From NCBI RefSeq assembly GCF_021391675.1, contig NZ_CP090095.1:3291501-3355500 (forward strand): a DNA stretch of 64,000 bases, written 5' to 3'. This DNA comes from Neorhizobium galegae (lineage in GTDB: Bacteria; Pseudomonadota; Alphaproteobacteria; Rhizobiales; Rhizobiaceae). A program made the position numbers and the translations under genes. Shown piece after piece: positions 41,785 to 54,065 of this stretch (its first letter is position 1; every line of letters begins with the position of its first letter). Below the pieces are notes generated by a model. It searched no databases. It was not told the origin of the DNA and saw only the letters and a list, made by a program, of their open reading frames with translations.

Positions 41785-42036
41785 CTACTGCGACTCCTGC
41801 AAACACCCTCGTCACCCCTAACTTAGCATGCGTTTGCATCTTGCGCAGCTTCAAGGGGGCCGGCTCCCCCTATATGATGACGCAATCGCAATTCCTCACC
41901 CTACCCCACCAATATTGAGCAACTCGTCTCCGCGGAACCCGCAGCAAGAATGATCCGGGGAGTGCGCGGCATTCCCTACCCCGTTGATATGGCAGGACAA
42001 TCGCATCTGGGATGTAAAGTGGGGGTGGTGTCCCCA

Positions 42037-42060
42037 ACCCTCCCCCACAAGAGGGAGGGA
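42037..42060. repeat. Palindromic intergenic repeat, copy C (half element)
   Basis: CCCTCCC-CCACAAGAG-GGAGGG hairpin of the same C/G-rich type as copies A and B. It lies in the 380-bp gap before the TetR gene, which otherwise holds only that gene's promoter and operator (42106-42150) and the leader of the divergent BacA-like gene. Confidence 0.5.
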
Positions 42061-42105
42061 CTCTACGGATTGCCCCCCGCCAGCCTCCACGCATCCCAAA
42101 ATCCC

Positions 42106-42150
42106 TTGCAATTTTTGCAACAGAATGTTAATGACCGACCAGTCAGTCAT
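42106..42150 (+). promoter_or_regulatory. Promoter and overlapping operator of the tetR efflux operon
   Basis: TTGCAA (42106-42111), a 17-nt spacer and TAATGA (42129-42134) form the promoter. The TetR-type imperfect palindrome ATGACCGACCAGTCAGTCAT (42131-42150; 16 of 20 positions symmetric) overlaps the -10 and start site, which fits autorepression. Confidence 0.7.
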
Positions 42151-42165
42151 AATCGAGAGCGCCCG

Positions 42166-42786
42166 ATGGCCGAGAAGAAGAGAGAGAAACGCGATCCGCA
42201 GCAGCGCCGGGCCGAGATCCTGGCGGCGGCCTTCGCCTGTTTCTCGGAGCGCGGTTTCGCCGCAACCCGCATGGAAGATGTCGCGGCCCGTGCCGGCATC
42301 GCCAAGGGCACCGTCTACCTGCATTTCCCGGACAAGGAGGCGCTGTTCACCGAACTCGTCTCCGGCATCGCCTCGCCGATCCTCGGCCAGATCGACGGGC
42401 TGGCGGCCAACGAAGCCATCCCGCCGCGCTTCGCCGTGTCGATGTTCTACACGCTCTTCAAGCGCGAGGTGCTGGAGACCGAGCGCCGCCACCTGCTGCG
42501 GCTGATCCTCGCCGAAGGCCCGATGTTTCCGGCTGTCACCGAGTTTTACCACCGCGAGATCATCTCCAAGGGTCTTGGCGTGCTGCGCATCCTCTTGAAG
42601 CGGGCGGCCGACCGTGGCGACCTGCGCAACCCGGCTATCGCCGAACTCCCGCAGATCGTCATCGCCCCGGCGCTGCTGTCGATTGTCTGGACGACGCTGT
42701 TCGAGGCCTACGAACATCTCGACACGCAAAATCTGTTCGACACCTTCCTCGATACCCTGTTCGTGCCGGAGGCAAGCGCGCCATGA
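42166..42786 (+). CDS. TetR/AcrR family transcriptional regulator
   Basis: A 206-residue repressor. The N-terminal helix-turn-helix is MEDVAARAGIAKGTVYLHFP (about residues 42-61), preceded by RRAEILAAAFACFSERG. A larger ligand-binding domain follows. Start 42166 (MAEKKREKRD) is chosen because earlier in-frame codons lie upstream of, or inside, the promoter and operator. Its stop overlaps the next ATG (ATGA), so it is the first gene of the efflux operon and probably its repressor. Confidence 0.94.
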   Translation: MAEKKREKRDPQQRRAEILAAAFACFSERGFAATRMEDVAARAGIAKGTVYLHFPDKEALFTELVSGIASPILGQIDGLAANEAIPPRFAVSMFYTLFKREVLETERRHLLRLILAEGPMFPAVTEFYHREIISKGLGVLRILLKRAADRGDLRNPAIAELPQIVIAPALLSIVWTTLFEAYEHLDTQNLFDTFLDTLFVPEASAP

Positions 42787-43748
42787 GACGCATCCTCGTC
42801 ATCGTTCTCCTCGCCGGCGCCACCCTCGCCGCCCTACCCTTTCTCCTCGCAGACCGGGCTCCGCGCCCCTATCAGGGCTGGGTCGAGGCCGATACGCTGT
42901 TCATCGGCACTGAGACCACCGGCCGGCTGACGAAACTCGATGTCGCCGAAGGCCAGGCCACCGAAGCCGGCGCGCCGCTCTTCAAACTCGACTCCCTGAG
43001 CGAAGAGGCCGCCGTCGCAGCAGCCAGTGCAGCGCTTGCCCAGTCGCAGGCAGCACTCGATCTTGCGCAAGCCGCCCAGAAGCGCCCGGAGGAGATTGAC
43101 GTGCTGCGCGCCTCCGAACGGGAAGCCACCGCCCGACTGGACCTCGCCGAACAGGATCTCGACCGCACCCGTGTCCTCGTCGAGCGCGGCACGTCCACCC
43201 GCGCCAATCTCGACACCGCGACCGCCACCGAAGCCGCCAACCGCGCCGCCCTCGACAATGTCCGCAGCCAGATCATCCTCGCCGCCCTCCCCGCCCGCGA
43301 TGAGACCCTGCGCCAGGCGCGCGAATCCGTCGCAGCCGCCAAGGCCGATCTCACCTCGGCCGAGGCAGCGCTTGCCCGCCGCTCCGTTTCGGCGCCGGCC
43401 ACAGGCAGCGTCGAGACGCTCTATTACCGCACGGGCGAAGTCGTGCCCGCCGGCCGGCCGATCGTCGCACTCCTGCCGCCGGAAAACGTCCGCATCCGCT
43501 TCTTCGTGCCGGAAACCGAAATCGCCAGATTGTCGCTCGGCCAGCCGATCCGCGTCACCTGCGACGCCTGCCGGCCGACCGACGCGAAGGTGAGCTTCAT
43601 CGCCAAAACCGCCGAATATACCCCGCCGGAAATCTACAGCCTCGAGGAGCGCGCAAAACTCGTCTACCGCGTCGAGGCCATCCCTGCCGACCCGAAGGCG
43701 CTACGCCCCGGCCAGCCGGTCGACGTCGCGCCCGGACCACGCCCATGA
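42783..43748 (+). CDS. HlyD-family periplasmic adaptor subunit
   Basis: A 321-residue membrane-fusion protein (YbhG-like). It has an N-terminal membrane anchor (residues ~3-22) and a lipoyl half-motif (GWVEADTLFIGTETTGRLTK). A long Ala-rich coiled coil with Asp/Glu/Arg (about 75-200) and a beta-barrel (LYYRTGEVVPAGRPIV) follow. It links the ABC pump in the inner membrane to an outer-membrane channel. ATGA overlaps join it to tetR and to the ATPase gene. Confidence 0.93.
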   Translation: MRRILVIVLLAGATLAALPFLLADRAPRPYQGWVEADTLFIGTETTGRLTKLDVAEGQATEAGAPLFKLDSLSEEAAVAAASAALAQSQAALDLAQAAQKRPEEIDVLRASEREATARLDLAEQDLDRTRVLVERGTSTRANLDTATATEAANRAALDNVRSQIILAALPARDETLRQARESVAAAKADLTSAEAALARRSVSAPATGSVETLYYRTGEVVPAGRPIVALLPPENVRIRFFVPETEIARLSLGQPIRVTCDACRPTDAKVSFIAKTAEYTPPEIYSLEERAKLVYRVEAIPADPKALRPGQPVDVAPGPRP

Positions 43749-44695
43749 CCGACGCCACCATGACGGTCGACGCCCCCGAAACGGTGATCGACGTCCATCA
43801 CCTCACCAAGAGTTTTGGCGGCCGCAAGGTGGTCGATGACCTCTCCATGTCGGTGAAGAAGGGCCGCATCCACGGCTTTCTCGGCCCCAACGGCTCCGGC
43901 AAGACGACCACCATCCGCATGCTCTGCGGCCTGCTCACCCCCGATAGCGGCGACGGCACCTGTCTCGGCTTCGATATCCTGACCGAAAGCGACCGCATCC
44001 GCCGCCGGGTCGGCTACATGACCCAGAAATTCTCGCTCTACCAGGACCTGTCGATCCGCGAGAACCTCGAATTCGTCGCCCGCGTCTACGGCCTGCCCGA
44101 TCCGCGCGGCAAGGCGGGCGCCGCCATTGAACGCCTCGGCCTTAAGGGCCGCGAGAAACAATTGGCCGGTGAACTTTCCGGCGGCTGGAAACAGCGCCTC
44201 GCGCTCGGCGCCTGCATCCTGCCCGAACCGGCACTCCTCCTCCTCGACGAACCGACCGCCGGCGTCGATCCGAAGGCACGCCGCGACTTCTGGAACGAGA
44301 TTCACGCGCTTGCCGCCGACGGCCTCTCGGTTCTGGTCTCCACCCACTACATGGACGAGGCCGAGCGCTGCCACGAGATCGCCTATATCGCTTACGGAAA
44401 GCTGCTCGCCGAAGGCACGGTCGACGAGGTGATCGCCGGCACCGGCCTCGTCACCTTCACGGTCTCCGGCCCCGACGTCCACCATCTCCAGTCCGAACTC
44501 GAAAACCGGCCGGGCATCGACATGATCGCCCCCTTCGGCACCAGCTTGCACGTCGCCGGCCGCGATGCCGCAGCCCTCGAACAGGCCATCGCCCCCTATC
44601 GCGATCGGCCGGGCCTCAAATGGGAAAAGGGCGAACCGACGCTCGAAGATGCCTTCATCGACCTGATGCGCCGCTCGGAGGACAATTTCAAATGA
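43745..44695 (+). CDS. ABC transporter ATP-binding protein (efflux)
   Basis: A 316-residue ATPase of the DrrA/YbhF half type. Walker A is GPNGSGKTTTIRML, the Q-loop region VGYMTQKFSLYQDLS, the signature LSGGWKQRLALGA and Walker B LLLLDEPTAGVD. All are intact. It has a C-terminal DUF4162-like tail (about 230-316). Overlaps on both sides show a coupled operon. It probably energises drug or lipid efflux through the next gene's permease. Confidence 0.93.
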   Translation: MTDATMTVDAPETVIDVHHLTKSFGGRKVVDDLSMSVKKGRIHGFLGPNGSGKTTTIRMLCGLLTPDSGDGTCLGFDILTESDRIRRRVGYMTQKFSLYQDLSIRENLEFVARVYGLPDPRGKAGAAIERLGLKGREKQLAGELSGGWKQRLALGACILPEPALLLLDEPTAGVDPKARRDFWNEIHALAADGLSVLVSTHYMDEAERCHEIAYIAYGKLLAEGTVDEVIAGTGLVTFTVSGPDVHHLQSELENRPGIDMIAPFGTSLHVAGRDAAALEQAIAPYRDRPGLKWEKGEPTLEDAFIDLMRRSEDNFK

Positions 44696-45858
44696 CCCCG
44701 GCGCCAGGCAGCATGAACGGCAATGGCTCTTCCGGGGGCGGCTCCTTCGGCCGCTTCTGGGCGATGACAGTCAAGGAATTCATCCAGATGACCCGCGACC
44801 GCATCACGCTCGCGACCATGGTCATGCTGCCGATCATGCAGCTCTTCCTGTTCGGCTTTGCGATCAACACCACGCCGCACAACCTGCCGACCGCCGTGCT
44901 GATGCGCGAAAACAGCGATGTCGGCCGCTCCATCCTCGCAGCCCTCAAGAACACAGATTTCTTCGAGGTGAAGACCGTCGTCACTCGCGCCGAGGACATG
45001 GACGCGCTGCTGCAATCGGGAAAGGTGCTGTTCGTCGTCGAGATCCCGGAAGGTTTCGAACGGTCGCTGCGCCGCGGCGATTCCCCCTCGCTGCTGGTCG
45101 CCGCCGACGCCACCGACCCGGTCGCCGCAAGTTCCGCGCTCGGCGCGCTCTCCGGCATCATCTCGACGGCGCTCGAAAACGACCGCCAGGTCGCCTTCGC
45201 CGAGCCCGTGAAACCCGCCTTCCAGATCGTCCAGCACCGCCGCTACAATCCCGCCGGCTCCTCGACCTTGAACATCGTCCCCGGCCTGCTCGGCACGATC
45301 CTGACGATGACGCTGCTGATCTTCACCGCCCTTTCCGTCACCCGCGAGGTCGAGCGCGGCACGATGGAGAACCTGCTCTCCATGCCGATCAAGCCCCTGG
45401 AGATCATGCTCGGCAAGATCGCGCCCTACGTGCTGATCGGCCTCATCCAGGCGCTCGTCATCATCGGCGTCGGCATTCTGGTCTTCCGCGTGCCGGTCCT
45501 TGGCGATCCGCTGTCGCTGGCGGCCGCGACGGCCCTCTTCGTCCTCACCAACCTGTCGATCGGCTACACGTTCTCGACGATCGCGGCGAACCAGCTGCAG
45601 GCCATGCAGATGGCGATGATGTTCTTCCTGCCGAACATTCTCCTCTCCGGCTTCATGTTCCCCTTCGCCGGCATGCCCGATTGGGCGCAGTGGATCGGCG
45701 AAGCGCTGCCGCTCACCCACTATATCCGCATCGTCCGGGCGGTGATGCTGAAGGGCGCCAGCATCGAGACATTGGCCTATGACACGCTGGCGCTCGCCGG
45801 CCTGATGGCCGTCGCCATGCTGATCGCGGTCCGCCGTTTCCGCCGCACGCTGGATTGA
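44692..45858 (+). CDS. ABC-2 type transporter permease (efflux)
   Basis: A 388-residue permease of the YbhS/YbhR or ABC2_membrane_3 type. One N-terminal helix (about residues 35-55) is followed by a periplasmic domain and then five C-terminal helices with VPGLLGTILTMTLLIFTALS and REVERGTMENLLSMPIKPLE. Start 44692 is fixed by the ATGA overlap with the ATPase gene. Only one permease gene is present, so a homodimer is expected (E. coli has two, ybhS and ybhR). Confidence 0.92.
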   Translation: MTPAPGSMNGNGSSGGGSFGRFWAMTVKEFIQMTRDRITLATMVMLPIMQLFLFGFAINTTPHNLPTAVLMRENSDVGRSILAALKNTDFFEVKTVVTRAEDMDALLQSGKVLFVVEIPEGFERSLRRGDSPSLLVAADATDPVAASSALGALSGIISTALENDRQVAFAEPVKPAFQIVQHRRYNPAGSSTLNIVPGLLGTILTMTLLIFTALSVTREVERGTMENLLSMPIKPLEIMLGKIAPYVLIGLIQALVIIGVGILVFRVPVLGDPLSLAAATALFVLTNLSIGYTFSTIAANQLQAMQMAMMFFLPNILLSGFMFPFAGMPDWAQWIGEALPLTHYIRIVRAVMLKGASIETLAYDTLALAGLMAVAMLIAVRRFRRTLD

Positions 45859-45986
45859 GGAATAAGGCCGGTTATCTCGCGTCTGCGGTATAAGCTTGGA
45901 TTCCGCCTTGCTTTATTCTCGTGCATTGCACAAAATCCTTGCAACGATCATCGATCGGCCCGGTAAAGCGGCCGGCAAGGGGAAGT

Positions 45987-48900
45987 ATGTCGATCAAGGC
46001 GAGTGTCTACCACCTTACCCACTATATGTACGACAAGCCCGTCCGTCTCGGACCGCAGATCATCCGCCTCAAACCGGCTGCCCATTCGCGCACCAAGGTG
46101 CTCAGCCATTCGCTGAAGGTGACGCCGTCCAACCACTTCGTGAACCTGCAGCAGGACCCCTACGGCAACTACCTCGCCCGCTTCGTCTTTCCGGACCCGG
46201 TCACCGAGTTCAAGATCGAGGTCGACCTGGTCGCCGACATGACAGTCTACAATCCCTTCGACTTCTTCGTCGAAGAGGATGCCATGAAATGGCCGTTCAG
46301 CTATCCGCCGGAACTGGTCGAGGACCTGTCGATCTACATGGTGCCGGAGCCGCCGGAACCGGCGCTGGTCGATTACCTGAAAACCTTCGACATGTCCCCA
46401 GACCAGCCGACGGTCGACATGATCGTCGGCATCAACGCCCGCCTGCAGCAGGCGATCGGTTATGTCATCCGCATGGAGCCCGGCGTGCAGACGCCGGAAC
46501 AGACGCTGACCTCCGCCATGGGCTCCTGCCGCGACTCCAGCTGGCTGCTCGTCCAGATCCTGCGCCATCTCGGCCTCGCCGCCCGCTTCGTCTCGGGCTA
46601 CCTCATCCAGCTCACACCGGACCTCAAGGCGCTCGACGGTCCCTCCGGCACTGAAGTCGATTTCACCGACCTGCACGCCTGGTGCGAAGTCTATCTTCCC
46701 GGCGCCGGATGGGTCGGCCTCGATCCGACCTCCGGGCTTCTGACCGGCGAAAGCCATATCCCGCTTGCCGCCACGCCGCATTTCCGCAACGCTGCGCCGA
46801 TATCAGGCGGTTATTTCGGCGAGGCCGAAACCTCCTTCGCCTTCGACATGAAGGTCAACCGCGTCGCCGAACATCCGCGCATCACCAAACCCTTCTCGGA
46901 CGAATCCTGGGATGCACTCGACGCGCTCGGCGAACAGGTCGATCGCGTGCTGAAGGCGCAGGACGTGCGCCTGACGATGGGCGGCGAGCCGACCTTCGTG
47001 TCGATCGACGATTTCGAATCCGGCGAATGGAACACCGATGCCGTCGGCCCGACCAAGCGCGAAAAGGCCGATATCCTGATCCGCAAGCTGCGCGAGCGTT
47101 TTGCGCCCGGCGGCTTCCTGCATTATGGCCAGGGCAAGTGGTATCCGGGCGAAAGCCTGCCGCGCTGGACCTTCTCGCTCTACTGGCGCAAGGACGGGCG
47201 GCCGATCTGGAGCAATCCGGACCTCGTCGCCGAGGAAGGCCGCGACTACGACGTCGGCGAGCAGGATTCCGCCAAGCTCCTGACCGGTATCGCCACCGAA
47301 CTCGGCATCGCCCCGGACATGGTCGTGCCGGCGTACGAGGACCCGGCAGAATGGATCATCAAGGAAGGCTCGCTGCCGGACAATGTCGATCCGTCGAACT
47401 CCAAGCTCAAGGATCCGGAAGAGCGCAACCGCATCGCCCGTGTCTTCGAGCGCGGCCTGACCAGCCCGAGCGGTTACGTCCTGCCCGTTCAGGCCTGGAA
47501 CGCGCAAGCGGCCGGCAAGCGCTGGATCAGCGAGAAATGGCGCACCCGGCGCGGCCGCATCTTCCTGGTGCCCGGCGACAGCCCGGTCGGTTACCGCCTG
47601 CCGCTCGGCACCCTGCCTTACGTCCCGCCGTCGCAATTCCCCTATATCCACGAGGCCGACCCTTCGATCCCCCGCCGGCCGCTGCCGGAAGCGATCATAC
47701 CGGCCGGCCGCGCCATGCCGGAATCCTCCTTCAAGGCAGGTGATGCGGTCAATCCCGGCCGCGTCGAACAAACCCTCGGCGAGATCGGCGGCGCCGTCCG
47801 CACGGCGGTTTCGGTCGAAGCCCGCGACGGCCGGCTCTGCGTCTTCATGCCGCCGGTGGAAAAGATCGAGGACTATCTCGAACTGATCGCCGCTGCCGAA
47901 AACGCCGCGACCGCACTCGGCCTCGCCGTGCATATCGAGGGTTACGCCCCGCCGCATGACGAGCGCATCAACGTCATCCGCGTCGCGCCCGATCCGGGCG
48001 TCATCGAGGTCAACATCCATCCGGCCGCAAGCTGGAAGGAGACGGTGGCGACCACCGCCGCGATCTACGAGGAGGCCCGCCAGAGCCGCCTCGGCGCCGA
48101 CAAGTTCATGATCGACGGCCGCCACACCGGCACCGGCGGCGGCAACCATGTCGTGGTCGGCGGCGCCAATCCGAACGACAGCCCGTTCCTGCGCCGGCCC
48201 GACCTGTTGAAGAGCCTGGTGCTCCACTGGCAGCGCCACCCCTCGCTCTCCTACCTGTTCTCCGGTCTGTTCATCGGCCCGACCTCCCAGGCGCCCCGCA
48301 TCGACGAGGCCCGCCACGACTCGATGTACGAGCTGGAAATCGCGCTTGCCCAGGTACCGGCGCCTGGCCAGGGCGCTCCCCCGCTGCCTTGGCTGGTCGA
48401 CCGCCTGTTCCGCAACCTGTTGACCGACGTCACCGGCAATACCCATCGTTCGGAAATCTGCATCGACAAGCTGTTCTCGCCGGACGGCCCGACCGGCCGC
48501 CTCGGCCTCGTCGAGTTCCGCGGCTTCGAAATGCCGCCGAATGCGCGCATGTCGCTCGCCCAGCAATTGCTGGTCCGGGCGCTGATCGCCCGCTTCTGGA
48601 AGAACCCGCTGCAGGGCCGGTTCGTGCGTTGGGGAACGGCGCTCGCCGACCGCTTCATGCTGCCGCAATATGTCTGGGCCGACTTCATGGACGTCCTCCA
48701 GGACCTGCGAGAAAACGGCTTCGACCTGCGTCCCGAATGGTTCGAGGCGCAACTCGAATTCCGCTTCCCCTTCTTCGGCGAGGTCGAATACGAAGGCTCA
48801 AAGCTGGAACTTCGCCAGGCGCTGGAACCCTGGCACGTGATGGGCGAACAGGGTGCGATCGGCGGCACCGTGCGCTACGTCGATTCGTCGGTGGAACGCC

Positions 48901-49313
48901 TCCAGGTCCGGCTCGAAACCGCCAATCCGTCCCGCTACACCGTCGCCTGCAACGGCCGCGCCGTGCCGCTGAAAGGCACCGGCACGTCCGGCGTTTCGGT
49001 TGCCGGCGTCCGCTTCAAGGCCTGGCAGCCGTCGGCCGGCCTGCACCCGGTCCTGCCGGTTAATACGCCGCTGACATTCGACATATATGATACATGGTCC
49101 GGCCGTTCGATCGGCGGCTGCATCTATCACGTTGCCCATCCGGGCGGGCGTAGTTATGACACCTTCCCGGTCAACGGCAACGAGGCGGAAGCACGCCGAC
49201 TCGCCCGGTTTGAACCATGGGGTCATACCGCTGGAAGTTATACGCTTCTGGCCGAAACGCCCTCGCCCGAATTTCCGCTGACGCTCGATCTGCGCCGGCC
49301 GCAAGGAGTCTGA
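45987..49313 (+). CDS. Transglutaminase-like protein fused to DUF2126
   Basis: A 1108-residue protein: a bacterial transglutaminase N-terminal domain (residues ~1-90), then a transglutaminase core with a complete triad (Cys181 in MGSCRDSSW, His230 in [10 protein letters not shown], Asp246 in GLDPTSG). A long DUF2126 domain follows (about 290-1108; [36 protein letters not shown]). DUF2126 is related in the literature to COOH-NH2 ligases. Start 45987 follows GGGGAAG. With the next two genes it forms a predicted peptide-modifying system; the substrate is unknown. Confidence 0.9.
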
Positions 49314-49321
49314 AACGCCCG

Positions 49322-51732
49322 ATGTCCAAGGCACCGGCAACCGAACGCAAGGCAAAAGGGGGATCGCTGGCGATCCCCTTCTCGGTTATGCCGCATTGCC
49401 CGGCGTTGCCGACGAGATGCTCGATGCGAACGGCCAGATCCGGCCGGTCTGGCGCAACCTGATCTCCCATCTCGGCCGCATGACCGAGCACGAGCGCCGC
49501 GAGCGTTTCGCCCGTGCCGACCGTTATCTGCGCGATGCGGGCGTCTTTTACCGCACTTACGGCGCCCAGGGCAGCGGCGAGCGCAACTGGCCGATCAGCC
49601 ACGTGCCGGTCCTCATCGACGGCAAGGAATGGGAGACCGTCTGCAAGGGCCTGACCCAGCGCGCCGATCTCCTGGAAGCGCTGATCGCCGATATCTACGG
49701 CGACAACAAGCTGGTGCAGGAGGGTTTCCTGCCGCCGGCGCTGATTGCCGGAAACGCCGAATTCCTCCGCCCGCTGGTGGGCGTCAAGCCGGTCGGCGGC
49801 CACTACCTGCATTTCTGCTCGTTCGAGATCGGCCGCGGACCGGACGGTAACTGGTGGGTGCTTGCCGACCGCACCCAGGCGCCGTCCGGCGCCGGTTTCG
49901 CGCTCGAAAACCGCGTCGCCACCACCCGCGCCTTTTCGGACATCTATGCCGAATCGCATGTCCACCGCCTCGCCTCCTTCTTCGGCGCCTTCCGCGATGC
50001 GCTGCAATCCCACAAGCAGAACCCGGAGGACCGCATCGCGGTCCTGTCGCCGGGTCCTGCCAACGAGACCTATTTCGAGCACGCCTATATCGCCCGCTAT
50101 CTCGGCTTCATGCTTCTCGAAGGCGAAGACCTTACCGTCGTCAACGACCGCGTCATGGTCCGCACCGTGGCCGGCCTCAAGCCCGTGGGCGTACTCTGGC
50201 GCCGCCTCGACGCGGCTTACGCCGATCCGCTCGAGCTCAACCAGCACTCCCATATCGGCACCCCCGGCATGGTGCAGGCGCTGCGTGCCGGCGCGCTCAC
50301 CTTCGTCAACGCGCTCGGCTCCGGCATTCTCGAGACCCGCGCGCTGCTGGCGTTCGCACCGACCGTCTGTCGGCGGCTGATCGGCGAGGACCTGATCATG
50401 CCCTCGATCGCCACCTGGTGGTGCGGGCAGAAAAAGGAACGCGAGCATGTCGCCAAGAATATCGAGCGCATGGTCATCGGGCCGGCCTATTCCCGGCTGC
50501 CCTTCTTCGACGACAACGGCCAATCGGTACTCGGCTCGTCGCTGCGCAAGACGGCAAGGGAGACGGTCGGCGACTGGCTTGCGACCGAAGGCGCCAAGCT
50601 GGTCGGCCAGGAGGTCGTGACGCTTTCGACCACGCCCGCCTACGTCAACGGCAAGCTCACTCCGCGGCCGATGTCGCTGCGCGTCTTTGCCGCCCGCACG
50701 GAACACGGCTGGCAGATCATGCCGGGCGGCTTTGCCCGCATCGGCGCCGGCGACGACGTGGCGGCGATCGCCATGCAGTCGGGCGGGGCCGCCGCCGACG
50801 TCTGGATCGTCAGCGACAAGCCGGTCGCAAGGGCGACGCTCCTGCCGCCCGAGGAAAGCTTTACCCGCAACATGCCCGGCAGCCTGCCGAGTCGCGCGGC
50901 CGACAATCTCTACTGGCTCGGCCGGTATATCGAGCGGGCCGAAGGCGCCCTGCGCATCCTGCGCGCCTGGCACCTGCGGTATGCGGAATCTGCCGATCCG
51001 AAAGCACCGCTTCTGGCCGATGTCACCCGCTACCTGAAGGGCATCGATGTCGAGATGACCAAGGCAGTGCCGGCATCGCTTCTGCGCAACATCGACAGCG
51101 CCATCTATTCGGCGAGCAACATTCGCGACCGTTTCTCGCCCGACGGCTGGCTGGCGCTGACCGACCTTGCCAAGACCGCCCGCCGCTTCCACGAAACCGT
51201 CCATGCGGGCGACGACGCCTCGCATGCGATGACCGTGCTCCTGCGCAAGCTCGCGGGCTTTGCCGGTCTGGTGCATGAAAACATGTACCGTTTCACCGGC
51301 TGGCGTTTCCTTTCGATCGGCCGCCACCTGGAGCGCGGCATGCACATGACCCGGCTGCTCGGCCACATGTCAGGCCCCGACGCGCCGGATGGCTCGCTCG
51401 ACATGCTGCTCGAGATCGGCGACAGCGTCATGACCCACCGCCGCCGTTACAACGTCGCCACGGCAAGGCTGACGGTCGCCGACCTCCTGGCGCTCGACCC
51501 CCTGAACCCACGCTCGATCCTGTTCCAGCTGAACGAAATCCGCACCGAGGTGGAGCAATTGCCGAACGCCTTCGTCAACGGCCAGATGTCGCCCTTCTAC
51601 CGCGAGGCGATGCGGCTGCATTCCGGCCTTGCGGTGATGACCCCGGAGGCCATGAACGACGATACCTATGAGAAGATCGAACTGGAGATGGAGAAGCTGT
51701 CCGATATCCTCGGCCAGACTTATTTCAGCTGA
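49322..51732 (+). CDS. Circularly permuted ATP-grasp plus alpha-E protein (DUF404/DUF407/DUF403), apparent frameshift near start
   Basis: An ~803-residue two-part protein. The N-terminal two thirds are a circularly permuted ATP-grasp (DUF404/407; GVADEMLDANGQIRPVW, RDAGVFYRTYG, FLRPLVGVKPVGGHYLHF). The last 280 residues are the helical alpha-E domain (from about 50875; RAADNLYWLGRYIERAEGAL). Reading from ATG 49322 gives MSKAPATERKAKGG, and then the frame is lost. The downstream frame continues back naturally as IAGDPLLGYAALPGV. One missing base in the run of five G at 49358-49362 explains this. If real, the only in-frame start is TTG 49396, giving 778 residues. The next gene overlaps by one base. 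Confidence 0.82.
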
Positions 51733-52613
51733 TGCTTTACGATCTCTCCCTCCACATGGGTTATACCTACGACGTGCCGGCCTCGGGCGCCCGCCACGTG
51801 ATCCGCCTCCTGCCGCTGTCCCTGCCCGACCGGCAGCGGCTGATCGCCGGCTCGATCACCGTGGGGCCGCAGGCCGATGAGCGGACCACCTTTATCGATT
51901 TTTTCGGCCAGCAGGCGACGTCCGTGCTGCTGCGTGCGCCGCACGAGACGCTCGACATCCGCATGCAGGCCCGCGTCCTGGTGGAAACCACCTCGATGAC
52001 GGCGGACCTGTCGCCGGAACTGGCAACGCTCGGCGGCGAACTGGCGGATTTCTGGTCGGTCGATGCCGCCTCCCCGCATCACCTGACGGGCGCAAGCCCG
52101 CGCCTTGCCGAGGAACCGCTGATCGCCGCCTATGCCCGCGAAATCGTCAAGCCCGGCCAGACCGTGCTGGAGATCGCGCTTGGCATCTGCGCCCGCATCC
52201 ACAAGGACTTTACCTACGACGCCAAGGCGACCGAGGTCGATACGACGCCGAAGGAGGCTTTTAGGCTGAAGCGCGGCGTCTGCCAGGATTTCACCCATAT
52301 CATGATCGTGGCGCTCCGCAGCCTCGGCATTCCGGCCGGTTATGTCAGCGGTTTTCTGCGCACCATTCCGCCGCCAGGCAAGGAGCGCCTCGAAGGCGCC
52401 GACGCCATGCATGCCTGGGTGCGGGTCTGGTGCGGCGAGACCATGGGTTATGTCGAACTCGACCCGACCAACAACATTCCGGCCGGCAGCGACCATATCG
52501 TCGTCGGTTACGGCCGCGACTATTCCGACGTCGCCCCGGTTATCGGCATGCTCAAGGGTTACGGAAATCAGAACGCCGTGCAGGCGGTGGACGTCATTCC
52601 GCTGAAATCCTGA
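51732..52613 (+). CDS. Transglutaminase-like cysteine peptidase
   Basis: A 293-residue protein: a transglutaminase N-terminal domain (residues ~1-90) then the catalytic core with Cys184 (RGVCQDFTHI), His227 (ADAMHAWVRVW) and Asp244 (ELDPTNN). No signal peptide is seen. It overlaps the ATP-grasp stop (TGATG), so the three genes are one operon. It may cleave or transfer the isopeptide bond made by the ATP-grasp partner. Related neighbourhoods often add an Anbu peptidase gene here; none is found in this window. Confidence 0.93.
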   Translation: MLYDLSLHMGYTYDVPASGARHVIRLLPLSLPDRQRLIAGSITVGPQADERTTFIDFFGQQATSVLLRAPHETLDIRMQARVLVETTSMTADLSPELATLGGELADFWSVDAASPHHLTGASPRLAEEPLIAAYAREIVKPGQTVLEIALGICARIHKDFTYDAKATEVDTTPKEAFRLKRGVCQDFTHIMIVALRSLGIPAGYVSGFLRTIPPPGKERLEGADAMHAWVRVWCGETMGYVELDPTNNIPAGSDHIVVGYGRDYSDVAPVIGMLKGYGNQNAVQAVDVIPLKS

Positions 52614-52736: not shown

Positions 52737-54065
52737 ATGATGAAGCACACAATTTTTGCGCGGCTGGCGAAGGACCGCGCCGGTAATTTCGGTATCATGA
52801 CGGCTGCAATGCTTCCCGTCCTGCTGGCGGTCGGCGGCGTCGCGGTCGATCTGACGCAGGCGATGGATCAAAAGAATCAGCTCCAGGCGCTGGCGGACGG
52901 CGCCACGCTCGCTGCGGCGTCCGCCATGGCCGCCAAGGGCACCATGACGACGGCGGAAGCCCAGAAGCTTGGCACCGATATGTATGTCGCCCAGAAGATA
53001 GAGGCGCTTAAGAATTCCGGTATTTCCGCTGAGCAGCAGGCCGCGGAAGAGGCCAAGCTGAGAGCGAACACCCAGACATTGGTAACCTCCTCGGGCAGTT
53101 CCACCACGGCTGCCAGCTACGAGGTCCGCATGAAGTCGAGCTACGATGTGCCGCTCAGCGGCCTGACCTCGCTCCTCGGCTTCCAGACCGTGCGCGTCAG
53201 CGTCGAAAGCGTCGCAGCGAGCGGCCGCGAAGGCAACGCCCTCTCCATGTACCTGGCGCTCGACGAATCCGGCTCGATGGCCGAGGACACGACCACCGTA
53301 AACGCAACCGCCCCGACGAAGCCCGGTTGGATCGACGGACCCTACGAATGTGGCACCACCAAGAAATCCAAGACCTGCTATGGCTATCATATGGGAGAAG
53401 TACCGAACTACATGACGAAGATGGCGTCGCTTAAGGCCGCCGCTGGTGTCATGTTCGCCGAACTCGAAAAAGCCGATTCGAACCATGAACTGATCCGTGT
53501 CGGCGCCGATTCCTACGACGACCAGACGAAGACCCAGCAGAGCATCCAGTGGGGTACATCCCTGGTGGACAGCTATGTCAAGAAGCTGCCGGAACCACCG
53601 TCGGGCGGCACCGATGCCAGCGGCGCGCTGACCAATGCGCTGAATGCGCTGAAGAATGCCAACGCCACCGAAAAGACCGCTCATGACGGCAAGGGCAACA
53701 CCAATTTCGAGCGCTACATCGTCTTCATGACCGACGGCGAGATGACCGGCAACAGCGGGACCTGGAACTCGACGATCGACGCCAAAGTGCGCGACATCTG
53801 CTTGAACGCGAAAAGCGACGGCCTGACGGATGCCGCAAAGGAGAAGCTGAGGAACGGGCAGCAGCTCACGGAAGAGGAAATGGCAAAGGGGATCAAGATC
53901 TACACGATCGCCTTCATGGCACCGGACAAGGGCAAGAAGCTGCTGAACTACTGCGCCAGCGGCCCCGGATATTATTACGAGCCGGAAAATATGACGACGC
54001 TGGTGAAAACCTTCGCCGAAATCGCTCGCAAGGCCGCCAAGACCGGCACCCGCCTGACCAACTGA
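52737..54065 (+). CDS. TadG-like pilus assembly protein with von Willebrand A domain
   Basis: A 442-residue protein. The N-terminal TadE/TadG motif KDRAGNFGIMTAAMLPVLLA (about residues 12-31) is a pilin-like hydrophobic helix. The rest has a von Willebrand A fold (about 165-430) with MIDAS motif DESGS (in LALDESGSMAE), Thr (GGTDASG) and Asp (FMTDGEMT). Low-complexity Ala/Lys sequence lies between. No other tad genes are nearby, so it is an orphan. It probably sits in the envelope, exposed to the periplasm or surface. A terminator follows. Confidence 0.88.
   Translation: MMKHTIFARLAKDRAGNFGIMTAAMLPVLLAVGGVAVDLTQAMDQKNQLQALADGATLAAASAMAAKGTMTTAEAQKLGTDMYVAQKIEALKNSGISAEQQAAEEAKLRANTQTLVTSSGSSTTAASYEVRMKSSYDVPLSGLTSLLGFQTVRVSVESVAASGREGNALSMYLALDESGSMAEDTTTVNATAPTKPGWIDGPYECGTTKKSKTCYGYHMGEVPNYMTKMASLKAAAGVMFAELEKADSNHELIRVGADSYDDQTKTQQSIQWGTSLVDSYVKKLPEPPSGGTDASGALTNALNALKNANATEKTAHDGKGNTNFERYIVFMTDGEMTGNSGTWNSTIDAKVRDICLNAKSDGLTDAAKEKLRNGQQLTEEEMAKGIKIYTIAFMAPDKGKKLLNYCASGPGYYYEPENMTTLVKTFAEIARKAAKTGTRLTN

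Follow-up and report, generated by a model that had tools for sequence, protein, structure and literature searches.

Within a 64,000-nucleotide stretch of Neorhizobium galegae DNA (contig NZ_CP090095.1, positions 3,291,501 to 3,355,500; hereafter the window), three genes at 45987-52613 encode two transglutaminase-fold proteins, the first of which also carries DUF2126, and between them an ATP-grasp fold fused to an alpha-E domain. Here we report that the ATP-grasp domain of this cassette has lost its catalytic residues, whereas paralogues in which ATP-grasp and alpha-E are separate genes (split type, as opposed to fused type) retain them. All three genes lie on the plus strand and the last two share base 51732, as the initial annotation had read from the open frames, and our Pfam search recovered the transglutaminase, DUF2126, ATP-grasp and alpha-E domains that it had named. 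The host genome is 6.05 Mb in size, and the nearest proteins are from Neorhizobium. The features of the cassette are as follows:

45987..49313, + strand: gene 1, transglutaminase-like domain fused to DUF2126, 1108 amino acids (Pfam; homologues of 1108 amino acids)
46005..46727, + strand: Bact_transglu_N and Transglut_core of gene 1, triad C203/H252/D268 in the numbering of the open frame from 45921 (Pfam; triad invariant in 59/59 sequences of one alignment)
46821..49295, + strand: DUF2126, predicted glutamine-synthetase-fold amidoligase
49396..51732, + strand: gene 2, ATP-grasp fold without catalytic residues, fused to alpha-E
49864..49878, + strand: former metal-ligand motif of gene 2, A-D-R-T-Q (split paralogues, E-D-N-x-R)
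50473..50541, + strand: former P-loop lysine and Gly-rich loop of gene 2, lost (split paralogue of this genome, VVK-x4-SGGYG)
50884..51726, + strand: alpha-E domain of gene 2, both conserved Glu-Arg pairs present (Pfam; alignment)
51732..52613, + strand: gene 3, transglutaminase-like protein, triad C184/H227/D244 (Pfam; triad in 54/54)

The open frame of gene 1 spans 45921-49313 (+), with an ATG at 45987, and matches Bact_transglu_N, Transglut_core and DUF2126 (PF09899; 1333 bits against a cut-off of 27, profile positions 2-826 of 826). Gene 2 belongs to the ATP-grasp fold (CP_ATPgrasp_2, 460 bits) and to the alpha-E family (PF04168, 200 bits against a cut-off of 20.8, with the Glu-Arg motifs), and gene 3 matches Bact_transglu_N and Transglut_core. 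The complete Cys-His-Asp triads described earlier for both transglutaminase-fold proteins are conserved in 62/62 aligned sequences of the gene 1 domain (TG1) and 54/54 of the gene 3 protein (TG2), and by sequence both domains are putative amide hydrolases or transferases. In the alpha-E domain of the fused form, E24/R25 and R158 are present in 55/55 sequences and E157 in 53/55; the split form keeps these Glu-Arg residues in 24/24.

The roles of the catalytic ATP-grasp residues are those that we take over, as an assumption, from glutathione synthetase and GspS. In gene 2, A157 and R159 replace the metal ligands (Glu and Asn), and both the P-loop lysine and the glycine loop are gone. None of 161 fused homologues retained both metal ligands, and none retained the P-loop lysine together with both tested loop glycines (L255 is excluded from this set as the same gene as L252). 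By contrast, the metal ligands, P-loop lysine and loop glycines are all present in 60/60 split paralogue sequences, which represent 58 distinct loci because two genes are counted twice (L051/L110 and, by coordinates, L114/L263). The initial annotation had cast the ATP-grasp of the middle gene as the ligase and had itself named the nucleotide-binding residues as decisive; these are the residues that are lost, and an active ATP-grasp in gene 2 is therefore contradicted on the annotation's own terms. The fused form is nonetheless under purifying selection, with dN/dS of 0.03-0.20 in 12 pairs. Selection thus preserves gene 2 in spite of its missing catalytic residues, and the gene product is therefore probably a partner of intact ligases and not an enzyme.

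The three genes are linked well beyond this genome. Within the order, 63 of the 150 genomes carry DUF2126, and after two fragments (G089 and G123) were left out we compared 61 loci, 60 of them fetched plus the window. By script, the fused gene stands after DUF2126 in 54 of the 59 loci that could be tested (55 with one correction by hand), and TG2 follows the fused gene in 52/54. In a named set of 80 loci, those retained from 588, which may overlap in species with the unnamed loci, the fused gene follows DUF2126 in 71/75 by script and in 73 by hand, and TG2 comes next in 69/69. Because open frames overlap their neighbours, the script undercounts the fused gene at L091, L146 and L148 and TG2 at L064. 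In three exceptions from the order (L065, L068 and L078) the fused gene and TG2 are located elsewhere in the genome. An additional set of 22 comprised 20 phylum loci and two on plasmids; here the order is retained in 13 of 21 testable and TG2 follows the fused gene in 13/13; gene order is rearranged in L230, L231 and L238. The conserved linkage that had been predicted was thus confirmed by neighbourhood comparison.

A second, intact locus lay out of view of the initial annotation. The host genome contains two alpha-E matches, and the other, at C1:3.036 Mb and outside the window, lies in a locus (L005) where an intact circularly permuted ATP-grasp (6161-7663 of L005), an alpha-E protein and a transglutaminase are each encoded by their own gene. 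Alpha-E scores above about 245 bits mark the split type and scores below 240 the fused type, a division checked against the fetched loci. Within the order, 60/63 DUF2126 genomes have two alpha-E matches, and the remaining three are 84, 78 and 56% complete. In a phylum sample of 299 Pseudomonadota genomes, DUF2126 is present in 84 and alpha-E in 156; all 84 DUF2126 genomes have alpha-E, 76 of them with two or more matches, and among the eight with a single match all seven with listed scores fall in the split class. The fused gene is also present in 11/11 genomes of this sample that have two alpha-E matches without DUF2126, with TG2 beside it in 10 and an intact split ATP-grasp seen in 10, the eleventh being 74% complete. 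A genome that has DUF2126 or the fused gene nearly always has the split type as well; where it does not, the assembly is incomplete. In seven loci (L041, L049, L051, L134, L188, L195 and L229) the intact split pair lies directly upstream of DUF2126. At one of these, L195 (NZ_CP116251.1, 6603-15794), a five-gene version in the order split ATP-grasp, alpha-E, TG-DUF2126, fused pseudo-ligase and TG2 is carried by an IncFII plasmid of Enterobacter roggenkampii, close to arsC and insertion sequence (IS) elements; it was the sole near match in the plasmid collection, and none was found in E. coli genomes.

Structure modelling assigns DUF2126 a glutamine-synthetase fold, and on this basis it is likely the ligase of the cassette, rather than the fused ATP-grasp. 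Candidate catalytic residues E356, E696, N698, H743, E845, E865 and R867 are invariant in 59/59 sequences. By comparison with glutamine synthetase and the YbdK-type carboxylate-amine ligases, DUF2126 shares about 10% identity, is larger and stands beside a transglutaminase domain. In L223 (G399), DUF2126 is strongly diverged, and it and its transglutaminase domain are encoded by two separate genes. In public records, P0164, P0170, P0173 and other DUF2126 proteins are named 'IMP dehydrogenase', an evident misannotation.

The proteasome-like Anbu gene, noted earlier as missing, is indeed absent: a 13-protein Anbu profile gave no match in this genome and recovered Anbu in 6/6 positive controls, which had supplied six of the 13 profile rows. 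A single Anbu protein as query also found none here, and had matches in 6 of 13 Rhizobiaceae genomes. PF00227 gave one match in this genome (88 bits) and one in each of the six control genomes, where it missed Anbu; it could therefore not settle the absence by itself, and surveys that use this model in whole-genome searches undercount Anbu. Neither the cassette nor the second locus (L005) contains an Anbu gene. At 9738-10703 of L005, the second locus is followed by a gene without a Pfam match, in the position that Anbu holds in many relatives. The earlier statement that Anbu often adjoins such cassettes holds for 7/20 phylum loci but for 0/60 order loci and 1/80 named DUF2126 loci; Anbu accompanies mainly the split loci (16/20, including that of the query genome; split loci were fetched from 20 of 109 alpha-E genomes, picked by score and kinship). 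The absence of Anbu next to DUF2126 is ordinary. In a family of small genomes (2.3-2.9 Mb; L219-L222), Anbu is directly beside DUF2126 and the fused pseudo-ligase is not nearby.

Clusters of DUF2126 and transglutaminase genes were reportedly proposed by Iyer et al. in 2009 as peptide synthesis systems, and their gene set is the same as that of the cassette. The cassette falls, as had been annotated, into the amidoligase/transglutaminase class, which includes such clusters and is credited to Iyer et al. 2009 in the available portions of PMC5666114, PMC6376114 and PMC3597751. It shares its ATP-grasp, alpha-E and transglutaminase families with the Anbu operon (ATP-grasp, alpha-E, transglutaminase and Anbu), but there is no Anbu in cassette or genome, ATP-grasp and alpha-E are fused, the ATP-grasp is dead and DUF2126 is added; the second locus is of the Anbu-operon type minus Anbu. 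In RloABC and RimBK (aspartic protease, inactive transglutaminase and ATP-grasp), as far as the available part of PMC12239564 describes them, the logic of an ATP-grasp with a peptidase is the same and Rlo also has one dead enzyme domain; the gene set differs, and it is the transglutaminase that is inactive there and the ATP-grasp here. In the available portion of PMC7764037, a review table records activity against nematodes for a metagenomic clone that carries genes for an ATP-grasp, alpha-E, a transglutaminase and a protease, a hint that clusters of this kind might yield a bioactive compound.

Taken together, we propose a distributed amidoligase/amidase with the pseudo-ATP-grasp-alpha-E protein as a regulatory or scaffolding subunit, a reading that we consider about evenly poised between right and wrong. 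The cassette would supply one half of a cytosolic system encoded at two loci, in which amide bonds on a small substrate or peptide are formed and broken. ATP-dependent ligation would be carried out by DUF2126 and the intact split ATP-grasp, encoded at the second locus here and directly upstream in some other lineages. The catalytically dead gene 2 protein would pair with those ligases, its alpha-E domain perhaps holding the substrate, and the two transglutaminase domains would hydrolyse or transfer the amide product. Such a system resembles GspSA (glutathionylspermidine synthetase/amidase) in its opposed synthetase and amidase, here divided among several proteins; unlike GspSA and eukaryotic glutathione synthetase, it has a synthetase domain without catalytic residues, and its hydrolases are separate transglutaminase-fold domains. 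We suggest more tentatively, and with somewhat greater doubt than belief, that the fusion of an ATP-grasp pseudoenzyme to alpha-E is ancient and retained in several phyla, that its presence is tied to an intact split paralogue within the same genome, and that it serves to regulate or assemble a distributed amide ligase whose chemistry, in this cassette, comes from a glutamine-synthetase-fold enzyme.

Several observations weigh against the proposed pairing. The interaction of the pseudo-ligase with active ligases is one that we infer from co-occurrence and shared ancestry, and according to the available part of PMC6376114, pull-downs of proteins from the related Yersinia Anbu operon detected no specific interactions. 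The co-occurrence counts are uncorrected for phylogeny and use alpha-E matches as a proxy, and G215, one of the 76 phylum genomes with two or more matches, has two of the split class. The fused form is one clade, but its separation from the split form in the tree is partly by construction because the sequences were initially sorted by best BLAST match. DUF2126 has no fused gene nearby in L219-L223 and none beside it in L093 (G134, 78% complete); the pseudo-ligase is therefore not required everywhere. An hhalign profile comparison with GCS2, which would have placed the catalytic residues of DUF2126, gave a probability of 0.1.

Other explanations of the fused protein have to be set against these results. 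According to the initial annotation it is an active ligase, and the cassette alone makes or adds a short peptide, which the transglutaminases take off again; with neither set of catalytic residues complete in any of the 161 fused sequences, this seems to us highly improbable. Some pseudokinases are rewired to non-canonical reactions, and a comparable shift of the fused ATP-grasp to a non-canonical nucleotide-dependent reaction would be consistent with its purifying selection and with family-specific invariant residues, for example, W342, G344, R234 and R429. However, the former nucleotide loop differs in length and sequence among members of the fused family, unlike a retained active site, and we regard rewiring as unlikely. 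The fused protein might instead be a substrate or carrier on which the product is built and from which TG2 releases it. The position of TG2 directly after the fused gene in the order, named and further loci (52/54, 69/69 and 13/13 by script), and beside it in 10 of the 11 genomes without DUF2126, is in agreement with this. Yet none of the 42 columns invariant across 51 fused proteins is Cys, Ser or Lys, and a single one is Thr (T257), so that there is no obvious attachment site, and alpha-E is conserved in the split form as well; a carrier role is accordingly improbable. Catalytic loss alone would also fit a residual paralogue, a relic carried along by operon structure, to which we give hardly any credence: the dN/dS values strongly disfavour it, and the fused gene persists in genomes without DUF2126 and, at L247-L249, where the two are unlinked. 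Overall, what had been annotated holds for domains, triads, the missing Anbu gene, linkage and class, and is mistaken or incomplete on the ATP-grasp as ligase and on the association with Anbu.

If the more tentative reading is correct, it is a mistake to view this cluster, in the DUF2126 branch, as an ATP-grasp peptide synthetase. DUF2126 and alpha-E clusters are common in Pseudomonadota, and no product of such clusters is named in the literature searched. One of the two ATP-grasp proteins being dead, with its intact partner at another locus, changes which genes should be expressed or deleted together, and what was a vague 'peptide synthesis' annotation becomes a pairing of enzyme and pseudoenzyme that can be tested directly. 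The literature searched, which excluded Iyer et al. 2009, contained no mention of the dead active site, of how general it is or of its dependence on an intact paralogue; given that the 2009 work lay outside the search, priority for noticing the dead ATP-grasp is uncertain. The cluster type is already known as a prediction, and we claim the dead-ATP-grasp variant as new, and no more.

The 5' end of gene 2 is irregular. Its frame has no in-frame ATG, GTG or TTG ahead of the TTG at 49396, and a Neorhizobium homologue (P0005, 99% identical) extends 25 residues further N-terminally. At 49322-49396 of the window, by a homopolymer, residues that match the P0005 N terminus are split between two frames. 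The frame break is either a strain change or an assembly error; intact copies occur elsewhere.

Just upstream of the cassette, at 41950-45858, are genes for a TetR regulator, an HlyD-type adaptor, an ABC ATPase and an ABC-2 permease, which resemble a split RbbA-type exporter. The TadG-like von Willebrand gene annotated downstream is present at 52737-54065 with a Pfam Tad match (3.7e-10); its von Willebrand assignment is weaker, the VWA_2 match lying below its cut-off. The segment 52737-60221, with the TadG-like gene and glgP, adjoins the cassette in some relatives too (a VWA gene is present in 11 of the 80 named loci and glgP in 13), namely in Rhizobium, Sinorhizobium, Ciceribacter, Martelella, Metarhizobium and two 'Rhizobiales bacterium' records.
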